Assembly: GCA_021817985.1 (NCBI GenBank)
Contig: JAKAFK010000030.1
Coordinates: 1-39,945, forward strand
DNA length: 39,945 nucleotides
Direction of reading: 5' to 3'
DNA from: Pseudomonadota bacterium
Lineage (GTDB): Bacteria > Pseudomonadota > Gammaproteobacteria > Burkholderiales > JAKAFK01
Shown here: positions 6,062-18,496 of the stretch, one piece after another
Layout of the letters: each line of letters starts with the position of its first letter
Position numbering within the stretch: position 1 is the first letter of the stretch
Notes under the pieces: generated by a model
Database searches by the model: none
Told to the model about the DNA's origin: nothing
What the model saw: the letters and a program-made list of their open reading frames with translations, nothing else
Position numbers and translations under genes: made by a program

Positions 6062-6141
6062 GCAGGCTTTGCGCCTAAACAGAACGAAAACCGGCGTAAG
6101 GCGGCTTCTTGCGGGGTCGCGAGGATCTTTGGAGCATATCG

Positions 6142-7044
6142 TTGGCACGTATTGCGATTGCGGCCTTGTGGCTGCTGCACTTTCTGCCGCTGCCGTGGCT
6201 CGCGCGCATCGGACGGGTTCTGGGGTTCATTCTCTATTCCTCCGCGGCGAAGCGACGCCGGATCGGGCGCATCAATCTGCGGCTTTGTTTTCCCGAACTG
6301 GATGATAGGGCGCGTGAGCGGCTGTTGCGGCGCCATTTTGCGGCGATCGCGCAAAGTCTCCTGGATCGCGGGGTCCTGTGGTGGTCGAGCGAGGCCCGCA
6401 TTCGCCAATGCGTGCGCGTCGAAGGACAGGAACACATGGACGCCGTGCGAGGGCGTCCGGTCATCTGGCTGGCCCCTCATTTTGTCGGGCTCGACATGGG
6501 CGGCGTGCGGATTAGCGTGGACTACCAGGTGGTGTCGATTTACGCCAAGCAAAAGAATCCGCTCTTCGATGCGTTGTTCCTGCGCGGCCGGATGCGGCTG
6601 GGTTCTCCTTTGCTCCTGTCTCGCCAGGACGGCGTGAGGGCGGTCGTGAGAGCACTCAAGGCGGGTATGCCCTTCTACTACCTGCCCGACATGGACTACG
6701 GGCCGCGGGACGCCATTTTTGTTCCGTTCTTCGGCGTGCCCGCCGCGACGATTACCGGGATGTCTCGGCTGGCCAAGCTCTCCGGGGCGGTGGTCGTGCC
6801 CTGCGTCACGCGGCAGCGCGCCGATGACAAGGGGTACGTGGTGCGGTTTTATCCCCCCTGGCAGGACTATCCGAGCGACGAGTTGGAGGCGGATACGCGC
6901 CGGATGAACGCATTCGTCGAGGACAGGGTTCGGGAAATGCCGGAGCAGTATCACTGGCTCCACAAGCGCTTCAAGACCCGGCCGGCGGGGGAAGCCGGCT
7001 TTTACGAGGGGATCAAAAAAAATACCCGCCGAAAAGGCGGGTAG
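6142..7044 (+). CDS. lpxL: Lipid A biosynthesis acyltransferase (LpxL/HtrB family)
   Basis: 300 residues from TTG 6142, the usual length. The enzyme transfers a secondary acyl chain from acyl-ACP to Kdo-lipid A at the inner membrane. An N-terminal hydrophobic helix (IAIAALWLLHFLPLPW) anchors it; the catalytic HX4D motif is H113-F-V-G-L-D118 in the segment LAPHFVGLDM; later PFYYLPDMDYG and FFGVPA segments are family-typical. The TTG is preferred because GGAG (6131-6134) lies 7 bases ahead; another TTG at 6109 is in frame. The last residues (about NTRRKGG) are encoded by the terminator hairpin of the small RNA gene on the opposite strand, so this C-terminus is atypical. LpxL, LpxM and LpxP cannot be told apart here. 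Confidence 0.85.
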   Translation: MARIAIAALWLLHFLPLPWLARIGRVLGFILYSSAAKRRRIGRINLRLCFPELDDRARERLLRRHFAAIAQSLLDRGVLWWSSEARIRQCVRVEGQEHMDAVRGRPVIWLAPHFVGLDMGGVRISVDYQVVSIYAKQKNPLFDALFLRGRMRLGSPLLLSRQDGVRAVVRALKAGMPFYYLPDMDYGPRDAIFVPFFGVPAATITGMSRLAKLSGAVVVPCVTRQRADDKGYVVRFYPPWQDYPSDELEADTRRMNAFVEDRVREMPEQYHWLHKRFKTRPAGEAGFYEGIKKNTRRKGG

Positions 7045-7067
7045 AAGGGGTGTATTGGAGATAAGCG
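7015..7067 (-). ncRNA. Candidate small RNA, left copy of a tandem pair
   Basis: A predicted transcript of about 53 nt. It would start near 7067, seven bases after the -10 GATAAT (7079-7074), run through a C/U-rich segment containing TTATCTCC and CACCCCTTC, and end in an intrinsic terminator. The terminator is TACCCGCC/GGCGGGTA (7023-7030 with 7036-7043), loop GAAAA, then eight T (7022-7015). The C/U-rich part can pair with Shine-Dalgarno sequences, as in several sRNAs that act by blocking ribosome sites. The 3' end overlaps the last codons of the acyltransferase gene on the other strand. No open frame is present. Transcription is inferred, not shown. Confidence 0.55.
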
Positions 7068-7073
7068 GATCAG

Positions 7074-7102
7074 ATTATCCGGTAAGTACGGAAAGAATGC
7101 AA
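7074..7102 (-). promoter_or_regulatory. Promoter of the left small RNA copy
   Basis: Minus strand: TTGCAT (7102-7097), 17-base spacer, GATAAT (7079-7074). The -10 lies inside the repeat unit and the -35 outside it, yet spacing and the TTGC core match the right copy. Confidence 0.55.
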
Positions 7103-7123
7103 GTGATTTTTTGCGTGCACGGG

Positions 7124-7176
7124 AAAAAAAATACCCGCCGAGGAGGCGGGTAGAAGGGGTGTATTGGAGATAAGCG
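7124..7176 (-). ncRNA. Candidate small RNA, right copy of a tandem pair
   Basis: Same architecture as the left copy and identical except for two loop bases (GAGGA). The predicted start is near 7176; the terminator stem TACCCGCC/GGCGGGTA lies at 7132-7139 and 7145-7152 and is followed by eight T (7131-7124). It could also be the terminator of the H+-ATPase gene that ends at 7317 on the same strand, but the promoter between the two and the conservation of the whole unit argue for an independent RNA. Confidence 0.55.
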
Positions 7177-7182
7177 GATCAG

Positions 7183-7211
7183 ATTATCCATTATTATCTC
7201 CCGGCGCGCAA
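7183..7211 (-). promoter_or_regulatory. Promoter of the right small RNA copy
   Basis: Minus strand: TTGCGC (7211-7206), 17-base spacer, GATAAT (7188-7183). A second GATAAT-like hexamer lies a few bases upstream of the -10. Confidence 0.55.
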
Positions 7212-7316
7212 GTCTTTTTCGACTCGTTTTGAGTTTCCGCAACTCGCGCCATCGCCGAGTCGCGGGACGGCGTGGTGACGGGACGCCCCTCGCCGGCGCT
7301 GCGGCGCGCGTGGGCG

Positions 7317-9824
7317 TCACGAATGTCGCTGGACGATCCGTGAATCGTGCAGGTGGCGCCCCAGGGTGTCGATGAACCGGAGATGGCGGGGCGTCAGGTG
7401 CTGGAAGCGGCGCTGGATCGAGACCTTCACGGCGTCCGTCACGAACGACCAGACGATGGAATAGAGCCAGATGATGCCGATCGCGAACCAGGAGATCGGG
7501 GCGATGAGGCCGAAGCCATAGGCGCACAGCAAGGTGGCTGCGATCTTGGTCGACAGCGCGGCCCAGATCATGATGGGCGCCGGATACGGTTTCTTCACGT
7601 ACGAGTCGCGATTGCGCGCGATGAATAACGCCAGGTGGCCAGAGACCGCCATCTTGAGGAACACGAAGGTCTGTACTTCGGCGATCGGGAGCTTGAGCCA
7701 GTCGACCGCGAGATAGAGCATGAGGAAGCTGCCGGCGGTGCCGGTCACCCCCATGGCGGTCGCGACCGCAAGCACCCGGTGCATGTCCCAGCGTACCGGA
7801 CTCTTGTCGACGGCGGTGTTGTCATAGGCGATGGCCATGATCGGCACGTCGTTGAAGAAGGCGAGCAGGATGATCATGATCGCCGTGATCGGATAGAAGT
7901 TGTAGACGATCATGGCCAGCACGACGAAGATCATGATGCGGATCGTTTCGTTGATGCGGTAGATCGCATACGCATTCATGCGCTCGAAGATGCGGCGCGC
8001 CTCTTCGACAGCCCGCACGATGGTGGACAGCCCCGGGGCGGTGAGGATGAGATCGGCGGCCGCGCGCGCGGCGTCGGTGGCCCCGGACACGGCCACGCCG
8101 GCATCGGCCTGCTTGAGGGCGGGCGCGTCGTTGACCCCGTCGCCGGTCATGGCGACCAGGTGGCCGCGAGCCTGCAGCGCCTTGACGATGGCGTATTTGT
8201 GCTCGGGAAAGACCTGGGCGAAGCCGTCGGCTTGCTCGATGCGCTCGGCAGCGTCCACCGGCGGCGGACCGTCGTTGCCTTGGAAGAGTGCGGCGGCGGG
8301 CTGTATATCGGCCCCGAGTCCGAGCTGGGTGGCGGTCTCGCGCGCGATGGCCACATTGTCGCCGGTGACCATCTTGATCTGGATGCCGTGTTCGCGCGCT
8401 TCGCGCAGGGTGCGCGCGGAGTCCTCGCGGGGCGGGTCGAACAGCGGCAGGAGCCCCAAGAATTGCCAAGGTCCGCCCTCGATTCGCCGCGCCACGCCGA
8501 GGGTGCGGTAACCCTTGGCGGCCAGCGCCTCGATGACGTCGTTGGCGCGGCTCGCGGTGGCCGCGTCGCCGTCGACCAGGGCGAGAATCACCTGGGGCGC
8601 CCCCTTGGTCACGGTGAAGGTGCGCCCGTCCTCGTCCCGGACCTCCGCTTCGGTGCGCTTGCCCACGGGGTCGAAAGGCATGAAGCGGGTCTGCACGAAG
8701 CCTTTCGTCGCCGAGGGGTCGGCCAGGCCCTGGATGACCGCCAGATCGATGGCATCCCGGTTTTCCGGCTTGGAGGCGAGGGCGCCTGTCAGGATGACCT
8801 CCCGCGGGTCTGCGGCCTCGAAGACGACCGGTTCCCCGAGAACGAGCTTGTTCTGGGTGAGCGTCCCGGTCTTGTCCGAACACAGGATGTCGATTCCGGC
8901 CATTTCCTCGATGGACTGCAGGCGCGAGACGATGGCCTTCATCTTGGACAGGGCCAGCGCCCCCACCGCCATGGTGACGGAGAGGACGGCCGGCATCGCC
9001 ACCGGGATGGAGGCCACCGTGAGGATCAACGCGAACTGGATGAGCTCCAGAAACGGAGCGCCGCGGTAGAGTTCCACCAGAAGGAGCACGGCCACGAGCG
9101 CGAGGCTCATGTAGATGAGGTAGTCGCCGATGGCGAGCACGGCTTTCTGGAAGTGCGACGGCGCGCCCGCGGCCTCGACGAGCCGGGCGGTCTCGCCGAA
9201 ATAGGTCTTGGTGCCGGTGGCCGTGACGAGGGCGGCCATCTCGCCCTGCTTGGCCACCGAGCCGGAGTAGACGGTATCGCCTGCTTTCTTGGATACCGGC
9301 AGCGATTCCCCGGTCAGTGCGGACTGGTCGACGCTCAGGTACTCGCCTTCCGCCAGCTTCGCGTCGGCGGGGATGATATCCCCCATCCTTAGCCGTATCA
9401 GGTCGCCGGGCACGAGGCGCGAGGCGTCGACGTCCTGCCACTGGCCGTCGCGCAGCACGCGCGCCGTGAGGGCGAGCTGGCTTTTGAGCGCCTCCAAGGC
9501 GTTGGCCGCCTTGAACTCCTGCCAGAATCCCACTGCGGCGTTGAAGACCAGAAGGACGAGGATGATGACAAAATCCGCCCAGTGGCGCACGAGCGCCGAC
9601 AGGATGGCGGCGATCTCGATCATCCAGGGGATGGGCCCCCAGACGTAGCCTAGAAATTTGAGAAGGGGATTGACCCTCTTCTCTGGCAGCGCATTGAGGC
9701 CGATGCGTGCGAGCCGACGCTCGGCCTCGGCTTGGCTGAGTCCCTGCGGCGCGCTTCCCAGCCGTTCGAAGGCCTGCGTGAGATCCAGTGCCTTCGCTTC
9801 GTCGCCGCCCAATGAATCCACCAT
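7317..9824 (-). CDS. Plasma-membrane-type proton-exporting P-type ATPase
   Basis: 835 residues, P3A type, like fungal and plant Pma1. It should expel H+ at the expense of ATP, a plausible role in pH homeostasis of an acid-living cell. The N-terminal cation-ATPase domain (about 10-60) is followed by two helices, the actuator domain with TGES (171-174), helix 4 with PVAMP (274-278), the phosphorylation site DKTGTLT starting at D317, KGAP near 407 in the nucleotide domain, and GDGVND (561-566), then six C-terminal helices. The ATG at 9824 is chosen because GGGAGGA lies six bases upstream; an ATG five codons earlier precedes that site. Cation specificity is inferred from overall resemblance, not proven. 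Confidence 0.9.
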   Translation of the reverse strand: MVDSLGGDEAKALDLTQAFERLGSAPQGLSQAEAERRLARIGLNALPEKRVNPLLKFLGYVWGPIPWMIEIAAILSALVRHWADFVIILVLLVFNAAVGFWQEFKAANALEALKSQLALTARVLRDGQWQDVDASRLVPGDLIRLRMGDIIPADAKLAEGEYLSVDQSALTGESLPVSKKAGDTVYSGSVAKQGEMAALVTATGTKTYFGETARLVEAAGAPSHFQKAVLAIGDYLIYMSLALVAVLLLVELYRGAPFLELIQFALILTVASIPVAMPAVLSVTMAVGALALSKMKAIVSRLQSIEEMAGIDILCSDKTGTLTQNKLVLGEPVVFEAADPREVILTGALASKPENRDAIDLAVIQGLADPSATKGFVQTRFMPFDPVGKRTEAEVRDEDGRTFTVTKGAPQVILALVDGDAATASRANDVIEALAAKGYRTLGVARRIEGGPWQFLGLLPLFDPPREDSARTLREAREHGIQIKMVTGDNVAIARETATQLGLGADIQPAAALFQGNDGPPPVDAAERIEQADGFAQVFPEHKYAIVKALQARGHLVAMTGDGVNDAPALKQADAGVAVSGATDAARAAADLILTAPGLSTIVRAVEEARRIFERMNAYAIYRINETIRIMIFVVLAMIVYNFYPITAIMIILLAFFNDVPIMAIAYDNTAVDKSPVRWDMHRVLAVATAMGVTGTAGSFLMLYLAVDWLKLPIAEVQTFVFLKMAVSGHLALFIARNRDSYVKKPYPAPIMIWAALSTKIAATLLCAYGFGLIAPISWFAIGIIWLYSIVWSFVTDAVKVSIQRRFQHLTPRHLRFIDTLGRHLHDSRIVQRHS

Positions 9825-10126
9825 CGCGCATCCTCCCATGTCCGCGGATCGGGGCCGAGGGGCGAGACGCAGGGGCAGGCGGCACTAGGGCATCGCGGGG
9901 GACAGGCAAACATTCTTACTCCGACGGCGCGCCGCACGAGCTTTTGCGCGGATCCGTGCCTGCCCCGGGGGAAATCGCCGGCCCAACACCTCGCACGTGA
10001 CGGCTTTTCGTCCTAGGATACGCCGTCCCCGCCCCACCTGGAAAGCGCAGCGGCCCGCACGGCTCCTCTGCCCAGGCGAGAACCGGTTCGAAGCCCGCGT
10101 GCCGTGGAGGGGCGAGGCGGATGGCC
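9825..10126. other. Intergenic region between ATPase and rhodanese genes
   Basis: About 300 GC-rich bases with no convincing gene. It must hold the ATPase promoter; I see no strong sigma-70 pair, only isolated -10-like hexamers on the minus strand near 9915 and 10015. No intrinsic terminator for the rhodanese gene is visible. Confidence 0.35.
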
Positions 10127-15659: not shown

Positions 15660-18389
15660 ATGGACGACGAGCACGCTTCACACCGGAACTCGGACCCTCA
15701 TGCCACCGCCCTTGAGTCGCTCTATGCGGCCTTCCTGACCGATCCCGCGTCGGTCTCGCCGGCCTGGGCCGCCTGTTTCCGGCAGTTGGGCCCCGGCGCG
15801 CCCGACTTGCCGGGGGCCCGGCCGGACGCCGAGGCCTTGCGCGACAAACAGGTGCTCGTGCTGCGGCTCATCAATGCGTTCCGCTTCCTGGGGCTGCGCG
15901 GGGCGGATGTCGACCCGCTCAAGCGCGGCACGGCCCCTGTGAAGGAGCTCGACCCGCATACCTATGGACTGGACGAGGGCGACCTCGACACGGTGTTCCA
16001 CACCGGATCCTTGTTCGGGCCCGCCCGCGCGAGCCTGCGCGAGATCTTGTCGATGCTGCGGCAGACCTACTGCGGGACGATCGGCTGCGAGTACATGCAT
16101 CTGAGCGATACGGAGCAGAAGCGGTGGATCCAGGCCAGGATCGAGGGCTCAAGGTCGACGCCCGCGTTTGCGCCCGAGGAGCGGCGGCAGATCTTTGAAC
16201 GGCTGACCGCCGCCGAGTGCCTGGAGCGGTATCTGCATGCCCGTTACGCCGGGCAAAAGCGCTTCTCCCTGGAAGGGGGAGAGACGCTGATCCCGCTGCT
16301 GGACCATCTGATCGAGGCGTGCGGTCGCCAACAGGTGGCGGAAATTGTCATCGGCATGGCCCATCGGGGCCGCCTCAACGTCCTCGTCAATATCCTCAGA
16401 AAATCCCCGCAGCACCTTTTCCAGGAGTTCGAAGGCAAGTACGAGGATCTGCGCGCCGCGGGTGACCTAAAGTATCACCAGGGATTCTCTTCGGATCTCG
16501 CGACGGCGGGCGGCCTCGTCCATGTCGTGCTCGCCTTTAACCCGTCCCACCTGGAAGTGGTTGATCCGGTGGTGGAAGGCTCGGTGCGGGCTCGCCAGCA
16601 CCGTCATGGGGATCTCGAGGGGGAGCGGGTGGTGCCTTTCCTCATCCATGGCGATGCCGCTTTCTCCGCGCAGGGCGTCGTCATGGAGACGCTCAACATG
16701 TCCCAGACGAGGGGCTTCCGTACGGGCGGGACCGTGCACCTCGTCATCAACAACCAGATCGGCTTCACCACCTCCGATCCGCGCGATACGCGCTCGTCCC
16801 TTTACTGCACGGACGTGATGAAGATGGTGGAGGCGCCGGTGTTCCATGTGAACGGCGACGACCCCGAAGCGGCTTTGCTGGTGGCCCAGATCGCACTCGA
16901 CTACCGCATGACGTTCAAGCGGGACGTGGTCATCGATCTGGTGTGCTTCCGGCGCCTGGGGCACGACGAACAGGACGAGCCGGCGGCGACACAGCCGCTC
17001 ATGTACAAGAGGATCGGGCAGCACCCCGGGCCCCGGGCGCGCTATCTGGAACGACTGACGTCCGCCGGCGTGCTGGCGGCGACGGAGGCCACGCGCATGG
17101 AGTCCGACTACCGTGCCTGGCTCGAGGCTGGCGACGCCCCGGCGCGCCCCAGGCGCGCGAGCGCCACGGACTGGTCCCCCTATCGCGGGAGCGATTGGCG
17201 AGCGCCGGCGCTCACTCGGCTTCCCCGCTCGAGGATTGCGCGGTTGGGCACGGCCGCATGCGCGGTCCCGGTGCAGTTCAAGCTCCACCCCAAAGTGGAG
17301 GAGATTCTCGCCAGCCGCCGCCTGATGGCGCGGGGAAAGGCCCTGATCGATTGGGGAATGGCTGAGACGCTGGCGTATGCGAGCCTGCTCGAGGAAGGCT
17401 ACGGGGTTCGCATCTCCGGGCAGGACAGCGGGCGCGGCACCTTCTTTCACCGGCATGCCGTGCTGCACGACCAGAACCGGGAACGCTGGGATGCCGGCGA
17501 CTACGTGCCCCTTCAGCATGTCTCGCAGAGGCAGGCGCCGTTCGTCGTGATCGACTCGCTGCTGTCGGAAGAGGCCGTCTTGGGCTTCGAGTATGGATAC
17601 AGCACGGCCGAGCCGAACGAACTCGTGCTCTGGGAGGCGCAGTTCGGGGATTTTGCCAATGGCGCCCAAGTGGTGATTGATCAGTTCATCAGTTCCGGGG
17701 AGGCCAAATGGGGCCGGTTGTGCGGCCTCGTCTTGATGCTGCCCCACGGCCAGGAGGGCCAGGGCCCCGAGCACTCCTCGGCACGCCTGGAGCGCTTCTT
17801 GCAGCTGTGCGCGGAGGAGAACATGCAGGTCTGCCAGCCGGCGTCCGCGAGCCAGATGTTCCATCTGCTGCGGCGCCAGATGTTAAGGCCCTATCGCAAG
17901 CCGCTGATCATCATGAGCCCGAAGGGATTGCTGCGCAATCCGGCGTCCTTCTCTCCGATCGAAGCCTTGACCGAAGGGAGCTTCGCCCCGGTGATCGGGG
18001 AGTCCCAAGCGCTCGATCAGGCTGCCGTGCGGCGGGTCATCGTGTGCAGCGGCAAGGTCTATTATGACCTTCGGCGCGCGCGCGACGAGCGCAGCAGACG
18101 GGATGTCGCGCTGATCCAGCTGCCGCAGCTCTATCCTTTTCCCGACCGCGAGTTGCAAGGCATGCTCAGCGCTTACCCTGCCGCGTCTGAACTGGTGTGG
18201 GCGCAGGAAGAACCCGAGAATCAGGGGGCATGGACTTGGATCCGCGAGCCGCTTGCCCGGCTTGCGGCGCCTGGGCAGGCGCTTCGCGTGGTGGCGCGGC
18301 CCGCATCGCCATCGCCCGCGGCCGGCGACATGTCGCGCCATCTCGAGCAGGCGCGAGCGCTGCTGGAGGAAGCCATGGCCTCGGCCTGA
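15660..18389 (+). CDS. sucA: 2-oxoglutarate dehydrogenase E1 component
   Basis: 909 residues, full length. This is the thiamine-diphosphate decarboxylase of the OGDH complex. The N-terminal E2-binding-type motif is visible (LESLYAAFLTDPASV, about 19-33), then the core with VIGMAHRGRLNVLVN, HGDAAFSAQGVVMETLNM and NNQIGFTTSDPRDTRS, and the C-terminal half with the FSGQDSGRGTFFHRHA-type segment (ISGQDSGRGTFFHRHA here) and LPHGQEGQGPEHSSARLERF. No Shine-Dalgarno sequence is obvious, so coupling to gltA (13-base gap) is likely. No sucB or lpd follows: a minus-strand small RNA converges on its end and the next gene is unrelated. Confidence 0.96.
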   Translation: MDDEHASHRNSDPHATALESLYAAFLTDPASVSPAWAACFRQLGPGAPDLPGARPDAEALRDKQVLVLRLINAFRFLGLRGADVDPLKRGTAPVKELDPHTYGLDEGDLDTVFHTGSLFGPARASLREILSMLRQTYCGTIGCEYMHLSDTEQKRWIQARIEGSRSTPAFAPEERRQIFERLTAAECLERYLHARYAGQKRFSLEGGETLIPLLDHLIEACGRQQVAEIVIGMAHRGRLNVLVNILRKSPQHLFQEFEGKYEDLRAAGDLKYHQGFSSDLATAGGLVHVVLAFNPSHLEVVDPVVEGSVRARQHRHGDLEGERVVPFLIHGDAAFSAQGVVMETLNMSQTRGFRTGGTVHLVINNQIGFTTSDPRDTRSSLYCTDVMKMVEAPVFHVNGDDPEAALLVAQIALDYRMTFKRDVVIDLVCFRRLGHDEQDEPAATQPLMYKRIGQHPGPRARYLERLTSAGVLAATEATRMESDYRAWLEAGDAPARPRRASATDWSPYRGSDWRAPALTRLPRSRIARLGTAACAVPVQFKLHPKVEEILASRRLMARGKALIDWGMAETLAYASLLEEGYGVRISGQDSGRGTFFHRHAVLHDQNRERWDAGDYVPLQHVSQRQAPFVVIDSLLSEEAVLGFEYGYSTAEPNELVLWEAQFGDFANGAQVVIDQFISSGEAKWGRLCGLVLMLPHGQEGQGPEHSSARLERFLQLCAEENMQVCQPASASQMFHLLRRQMLRPYRKPLIIMSPKGLLRNPASFSPIEALTEGSFAPVIGESQALDQAAVRRVIVCSGKVYYDLRRARDERSRRDVALIQLPQLYPFPDRELQGMLSAYPAASELVWAQEEPENQGAWTWIREPLARLAAPGQALRVVARPASPSPAAGDMSRHLEQARALLEEAMASA

Positions 18390-18397
18390 CCGCGCTA

Positions 18398-18466
18398 AAA
18401 AAAACCCGCCGGGGGGCGGGTGAAGGGGGATGCACGTTCCCACAAAGGAGAACGAGACCTTATTGT
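18398..18466 (-). ncRNA. Candidate small RNA antisense-facing to the sucA end, related to the tandem pair
   Basis: A predicted transcript of about 69 nt. From the -10 TATAAT (18478-18473) it would run to an intrinsic terminator ACCCGCC/GGCGGGT (18405-18411 with 18416-18422), loop GGGG, then eight T (18405-18398 side). Before the terminator lies CCCCCTTCACCCGCC, close to CCCCTTCTACCCGCC of the 7.0-7.2 kb pair. A second hairpin GTTCTC/GGGAAC (18454-18449 with 18442-18437) exposes CTTTGT in its loop, next to an anti-Shine-Dalgarno CTCCTTT. A GAGAC/GTCTC inverted repeat (18470-18455) spans the expected start. There is no open frame. It ends nine bases from the sucA stop. Confidence 0.55.
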
Positions 18467-18472
18467 CTCGTA

Positions 18473-18496
18473 TTATAGGGGCATTTGCAAATTTTA
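18473..18496 (-). promoter_or_regulatory. Promoter of the sucA-proximal small RNA
   Basis: A perfect TATAAT on the minus strand (18478-18473). The hexamer 17 bases upstream reads TGGATA (4/6 to TTGACA). The inverted repeat GAGAC-N6-GTCTC (18455-18470) overlaps the expected start and could be an operator. Confidence 0.5.

Follow-up and report, generated by a model that had tools for sequence, protein, structure and literature searches.

A pair of short, almost identical repeats lies at 7015-7211 of the window, as we call the whole stretch of 39,945 nucleotides that was analysed (contig JAKAFK010000030.1), between an lpxL-type gene and a proton ATPase gene. The question raised by this locus is whether the repeats are just two terminators in series behind the ATPase gene, or genes in their own right. 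We consider it probable, as judged from sequence comparison, that they are two tandem genes for trans-acting small RNAs (sRNAs) that act like, and were probably shortened from, the RNAs of Rfam family RF02278. The features of the locus are the following.

6109-7044, plus strand: lipid A lauroyl acyltransferase-type gene (lpxL/htrB type); PF03279 above cut-off, NCBIfam matches below their cut-offs
7015-7080, minus strand: repeat unit 1, with -10, predicted sRNA-1 and terminator; from the direct repeat and comparison with JAJYKK010000076.1
7015-7066, minus strand: predicted sRNA-1, about 52 nt; from the fold, with the 5' end placed from the -10
7015-7043, minus strand: predicted intrinsic terminator of sRNA-1 (stem 7043-7023, 8 pairs, T8); from terminator scan and fold
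7043-7052, minus strand: second C-rich stretch CACCCCUUCU of sRNA-1; in the pairing test, no start-region preference beyond shuffles
7057-7063, minus strand: UAUCUCC of sRNA-1, aligning with UGUCUCC of RF02278 in the model alignment
7074-7079, minus strand: putative -10 GATAAT of sRNA-1; from sequence and comparison
7097-7102, minus strand: -35-like TTGCAT of sRNA-1, outside the unit, 17 bases from GATAAT; from sequence, four-copy comparison and genome count
7124-7189, minus strand: repeat unit 2, with -10, predicted sRNA-2 and terminator; from the direct repeat and comparison with JAJYKK010000076.1
7124-7175, minus strand: predicted sRNA-2, about 52 nt; from the fold, with the 5' end placed from the -10
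7124-7152, minus strand: predicted intrinsic terminator of sRNA-2 (stem 7152-7132, 8 pairs, T8); from terminator scan and fold
7152-7161, minus strand: second C-rich stretch CACCCCUUCU of sRNA-2; in the pairing test, no start-region preference beyond shuffles
7166-7172, minus strand: UAUCUCC of sRNA-2, aligning with UGUCUCC of RF02278 in the model alignment
7183-7188, minus strand: putative -10 GATAAT of sRNA-2; from sequence and comparison
7206-7211, minus strand: -35-like TTGCGC of sRNA-2, outside the unit, 17 bases from GATAAT; from sequence, four-copy comparison and genome count
7317-9839, minus strand: plasma-membrane proton-efflux P-type ATPase gene, ending upstream of the pair; TIGR01647, 1000 bits, above cut-off

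A repeat search returned the two units as a direct repeat of 66 nt with a start-to-start spacing of 109, identical at 64 of the 66 positions (97%), and the only two mismatches (7033-7034 versus 7142-7143) both fall in the loop of the hairpin. Read 5' to 3', each unit consists of a GATAAT close to its 5' edge, a C/U-rich sequence, a hairpin of eight pairs and a run of eight T residues, and in both cases a TTGC-type -35 is found at 17 bases, outside the repeated unit. The original prediction had described exactly this anatomy, including the confinement of all differences to two loop bases, and it was confirmed for both units. A terminator scan of 6700-7700 gave two sites, each of them on the minus strand; shuffled sequences gave 0.7 on average (sd 0.9). 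The predicted 52-nt RNAs would start with GCUUAUCUCCAAUACACCCCUUCU, followed by the terminator, and they fold into an unpaired 5' part and the terminator hairpin at -15.2 kcal/mol (z about -4.7), a stability equalled by none of 200 shuffles.

A generic sigma-70 scan of 6700-7700 called neither unit promoter, its sole match there being a TCGAAA paired with a different GATAAT at 7198-7193. The case for the promoters therefore rests on their conservation and on the frequency of the arrangement TTGCNN-17-GATAAT. In 412,094 bases of the own genome (the window plus 20 fetched stretches), this arrangement occurs twice on both strands taken together, and the two occurrences are the two unit promoters; about 0.2 would be expected by chance, given 49 GATAAT words and a TTGC frequency of 0.0044. 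Chance hardly accounts for the promoter arrangement.

Genus and family of the window genome were represented by just two genomes in the set compared, the own one (G000) and one other (G001). An exact scan of the genome contig collection with 26 bases of the unit retrieved a single record, JAJYKK010000076.1, from a metagenome bin; this other genome of the genus carries the same tandem pair, at the same locus and in the same copy number. A DNA search of 60 genomes of the order, own genome included, gave matches in three, with the pair occurring in the genus's two genomes only; the match in the third genome (G005; L011) and a further match in the own genome (L012) comprise only the hairpin. Unit 2 is identical to its orthologue at 66 of 66 positions and unit 1 at 64 of 66, whereas the flanking coding sequences are identical at 893/981 and 556/615 positions (90.4-91.0%) and the flanking spacers at only 53-73%, i.e. 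71/99 positions from the ATPase gene to the -35 of unit 2 (with 62 gap columns), 11/15 and 14/20 in the stretches between -35 and unit, and 9/17 in part of the inter-unit spacer. The hairpin stem is invariant across the four copies of the two genomes, and a CTTGC at the -35 position is kept in all four, while the flanks of the paralogues otherwise align poorly. The conservation of the units next to diverged flanks shows constraint on the -10, on the unpaired part and on the hairpin alike, which is more than two plain terminators would need. Concerted evolution could be a source of the identity within a genome, not of that between genomes.

These data bear directly on the view that the repeats are only tandem terminators of the ATPase message and that the promoter-like words beside them are due to chance. 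Such a view accords with the orientation of both hairpins, which is the right one to end this message, with the lack of any other minus-strand terminator in 6700-7700, and with the failure of the generic promoter scan to call either unit promoter. A plain terminator, however, needs neither the 37 conserved bases upstream of the stem nor a GATAAT, and a TTGC that is kept 17 bases away and outside the repeat in every copy is superfluous for it; moreover, the first hairpin lies 164 bases past the ATPase stop codon. We regard termination as the sole role of the repeats as rather unlikely. The comparison gives good support to the original claim of two sRNA genes, each with a promoter of its own. 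It likewise supports the corollary that the pair is not merely a duplicated ATPase terminator, since conservation extends to the -10 and the unpaired C/U-rich part to the same degree as to the hairpin.

Being short, nearly identical and placed between convergent genes, the copies could also represent a mobile or palindromic element without RNA function. The conserved locus and copy number in the other genome argue against such an element, and so does the search of the own genome, in which no further copy of the unit was found: seven other matches span 14-37 bases, none has an E below 0.0014, and the best of them is a hairpin. This origin of the repeat is very improbable.

In both genomes, the final 30 bases of the lpxL-type gene (7015-7044; ten codons, stop included) overlap unit 1 and reach into the sRNA-1 terminator; the terminator scan found no plus-strand terminator in 6700-7700. 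The lpxL mRNA could therefore, by read-through, carry the exact complement of both RNAs, and the units might mainly silence lpxL, or the lpxL tail might soak up the RNAs. An RNA that acts only in antisense should diverge along with its target, whereas lpxL is much less conserved than the unit; in addition, unit 2 lies entirely beyond the gene. Both points make a main role in lpxL silencing improbable.

With the repeats read as two trans-acting sRNA genes, their relation to known families can be considered. No Rfam family matched the window at the curated cut-offs. Below cut-off, the top match of both units was RF02278, 'Betaproteobacteria toxic small RNA', with 26.8 and 26.2 bits (E 0.0015 and 0.0022) against a curated cut-off of 50, followed by Hrs1 on the other strand (23.7 bits, E 0.014) and anti-hemB (19.6 bits, E 0.021). 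The 5' UNUCUCC and the terminator align, just seven bases at the 5' end aligning well: the UCC that follows in the UGUCUCCUCC of the family is absent, and of the two hairpins of the family only the terminator hairpin forms, the units having 10 bases where the model has 23. The 3' intrinsic terminator is present in the units as in the family. When the entire own genome was searched with RF02278, the first two ranks went to true members located on other contigs (62.3 and 53.3 bits), the third to a short gene at C178:50673 (27.2 bits) and the fourth to unit 2 (26.8 bits, E 0.0046), unit 1 being unlisted and the next match scoring 19.2 bits (E 0.38). The short gene (G000:C178:50673-50719; L190, 1501-1547) consists of UGUCUCCUCCGACAC directly followed by a terminator and is conserved in the other genome (L195); with its exact UGUCUCCUCC start and hardly any first hairpin, it looks like an intermediate form. 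Of the 399 genomes of the order, 144 have an RF02278 match above cut-off, compared with none of 14 control genomes; this contrast suggests that the order is Burkholderiales. At E up to 1, 11 of these 14 control genomes also match (none above cut-off), so that weak matches alone mean little; in ten control loci, taken from matches of the unit's own model, there was no RF02278 match at E up to 10.

The pair might accordingly consist of true, if diverged, RF02278 members. This is a possibility of some weight, as RF02278 is the top Rfam match, unit 2 ranks in the own genome right behind the true members and one short gene, and the latter has the appearance of an intermediate; we nevertheless think it doubtful in view of the scores of 26-27 against 50, the absent first hairpin and the short stretch of good 5' alignment. 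The pair and RF02278 have in common that they are very short and intergenic, with a terminator of their own, a 5' UNUCUCC and C/U-rich unpaired stretches, and that they occur in the same order. They differ in that the pair lacks the first hairpin, has UAUCUCCAAU instead of UGUCUCCUCC, scores below cut-off, and stands in tandem at 109-base spacing with predicted RNAs of about 52 nt, compared with 57-92 nt for RF02278-type RNAs. In family f8, two genomes each have two canonical RF02278 genes separated by 200-380 bases (L134, 501-943; L135), so that closely spaced pairs also occur within the known family. The link to RF02278 and to the arrays described below was no part of the original prediction.

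A covariance model (R1) built from the four copies of the pair and searched against 399 genomes gave matches at E up to 0.05 in 69 of them, and 22 of 30 R1 loci were inspected. Fourteen inspected loci outside family f37 were judged by eye to be gene ends, terminators or chance matches. In f37 (best E 8.1e-4), minimal units with a predicted length of about 47 nt lie between msbA and metH (gene names from L044) in eight of the nine family genomes (G081, G037 and G123 among them), with two or three units in seven genomes and one in G037. The two units of G161 are 374 bases apart, and G315, an assembly with 6% contamination, has two loci with units. Most f37 units have a GAACCGUAUCUCCUCCUUU-like 5' part that is C/U-rich and anti-Shine-Dalgarno-like, and their terminator hairpin shows one compensatory pair, A-U to G-C, in 4 of 14 distinct sequences. 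Loci L044, L045, L046, L048, L049, L050, L051 and L052 have a dyad CTTAA(G/T)...RTAAG about at the -35 place, possibly a binding site for a regulator.

A second model (R2), built from 15 of 19 f37 units (unit 1 of L046, both units of L047 and unit 2 of L051 were left out), scored the window units with 32.5 and 31.1 bits (E 3.3e-4 and 7.4e-4); six unrelated genomes score higher, and sequence therefore does not establish common descent. RF02278 matched two of three f37 loci weakly (23.6 and 22.2 bits) and was not the best Rfam match there, ranking below Hrs1 on the other strand (31.2, 27.2 and 20.7 bits) and anti-hemB (26.6 bits); at curated cut-offs, Rfam gave nothing in L051, L044 and L013. 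None of the nine f37 genomes reached the RF02278 cut-off, five having weak matches (best E 4.4e-4) and four none at E up to 0.01. The f37 units resemble the pair in forming arrays of one to three, each unit with one terminator hairpin and an upstream element of its own, and differ in locus, in the CTTAA...RTAAG dyad in place of TTGC and in that the sequence link is not significant. We treat the f37 arrays as putatively the same kind of thing as the pair, not as proven relatives.

At other loci of f37 (L087, L088, L090, L091 and L092) a further short sRNA-like gene was seen, made up of GCATACCCTCCT and a terminator. A scan of 300 genomes for a tandem-TCTCC pattern (matches in 76) was discarded, as its gap was too short and it misses the window's own pair. 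The window itself has another candidate sRNA gene at 18395-18490 on the minus strand, directly 3' of a frame at 15660-18389 that was named by eye as oxoglutarate dehydrogenase-like. It has a promoter-like TTGCAA-17-GACAAT (GATAAT in the other genome, L095), with a TATAAT in the spacer as a rival -10. The candidate further comprises a GUUCUC...GGGAAC hairpin, one U-G pair of which is replaced by U-A in the other genome, as well as CAUCCCCCUUC and a T8 terminator; its Rfam matches are weak only.

As to the action of the RNAs, pairing with gene starts was examined for 217 starts in the 412 kb, crudely called as longest ATG frames, with 60 shuffled segments as reference. The pairing of CUUAUCUCCAAU is strongest in the 25 bases that precede the starts (mean -4.68 kcal/mol, versus -3.55 to -4.05 at six other places), and 5 of 60 shuffles were as low. 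For the same starts, CACCCCUUCU and the whole 5' part showed no start-region preference beyond that of shuffled segments, 25 and 37 of the 60 shuffles, respectively, being as low. The canonical UGUCUCCUCC, included as a yardstick, itself reached only 24 of 60, from which it follows that the test is insensitive. The anti-Shine-Dalgarno character originally ascribed to the RNAs thus finds modest support for CUUAUCUCCAAU but not for CACCCCUUCU. When both genomes of the genus were searched for start codons preceded by the extended complement TTGGAGATA, three matches were obtained in G000 (five for the reversed control) and one in G001 (none for the control); no convincing start was found among these four, all of which are crossed by a frame that is open 300 bases upstream. 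The conserved match pair L196/L199 was rejected as a target, as it is inside a reading frame. In each of the two genomes, two Hfq genes exceed the Pfam cut-off.

The toxic sRNAs are reportedly due to Kimelman et al. 2012, as told in papers that cite this work. Homologous sRNAs in tandem have a parallel within the Betaproteobacteria in NmsR (NgncR_162/163) of Neisseria, and AbcR1/AbcR2 of the Rhizobiales are likewise a homologous sRNA pair. The NmsR sRNAs are longer than the window RNAs and have several hairpins; AbcR1/AbcR2 are also longer RNAs, and they act near ribosome-binding sites. By the NmsR-type definition of adjacent homologues each with a promoter, the pair shows the repeat and promoter-like words, as read from the DNA. 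According to PMC5688073, NmsR has C/U-rich unpaired stretches complementary to ribosome-binding regions, and the double-hairpin RNAs of B. cenocepacia (ncS03, ncS05, ncS27 and ncS62) are four homologues of 57-92 nt with two hairpins, whose C/U-rich regions are complementary to ribosome-binding sites and which 'occur not in tandem'; overexpression of ncS27 slows growth and its silencing speeds growth. For Bordetella pertussis S17S, the 5' end of which is close to RF02278, PMC11722255 describes repression of a sigma-54 regulator by base pairing, with the S17 pairing near the ribosome-binding site backed by compensatory changes, and overexpression that is without toxicity in E. coli, so that toxicity is not general in RNAs of the RF02278 kind. 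Members of RF02278 are also reported from Herbaspirillum (PMC7011215) and in a start-site map of B. cenocepacia (PMC4603805). In the literature covered by the search, beyond which lie most subscription papers, no tandem single-hairpin toxic or anti-Shine-Dalgarno sRNA was found.

We propose that each RNA of about 52 nt would be read from its own TTGCNN-17-GATAAT promoter and end at its own intrinsic terminator, and that it has an unpaired C/U-rich 5' part and a U8-tailed hairpin, which may bind Hfq. The RNAs probably act at ribosome-binding sites: UAUCUCC would pair with the Shine-Dalgarno sequence of several mRNAs and block ribosome binding, as for RF02278-type RNAs, and the two copies might provide a higher dose or mutual backup. 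The pair would be a shortened derivative of the 'toxic' or double-hairpin sRNAs in which the first hairpin has been lost. More tentatively, the pair and the f37 arrays may stand for an undescribed minimal class of single-hairpin sRNAs of 47-52 nt, which would derive from the toxic double-hairpin RNAs through loss of the first hairpin. Amplification would have produced tandem arrays in which every copy has its own promoter, and these would lie at different loci in two or more families of the order.

RF02278 is widespread in the order, but only few targets have been tested in the literature, as far as the consulted parts of it go. That the units remained nearly unchanged while the neighbouring genes lost 9-10% identity points to strong selection on an RNA of some 50 bases. 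A natural form without the first hairpin would reveal which part is needed for binding and repression, and tandem copies that each have their own promoter would help to decide between dose and division of labour as the force behind sRNA duplication. If the proposed class is real, each such array would act as a general brake on the initiation of translation, tuned by gene dosage.
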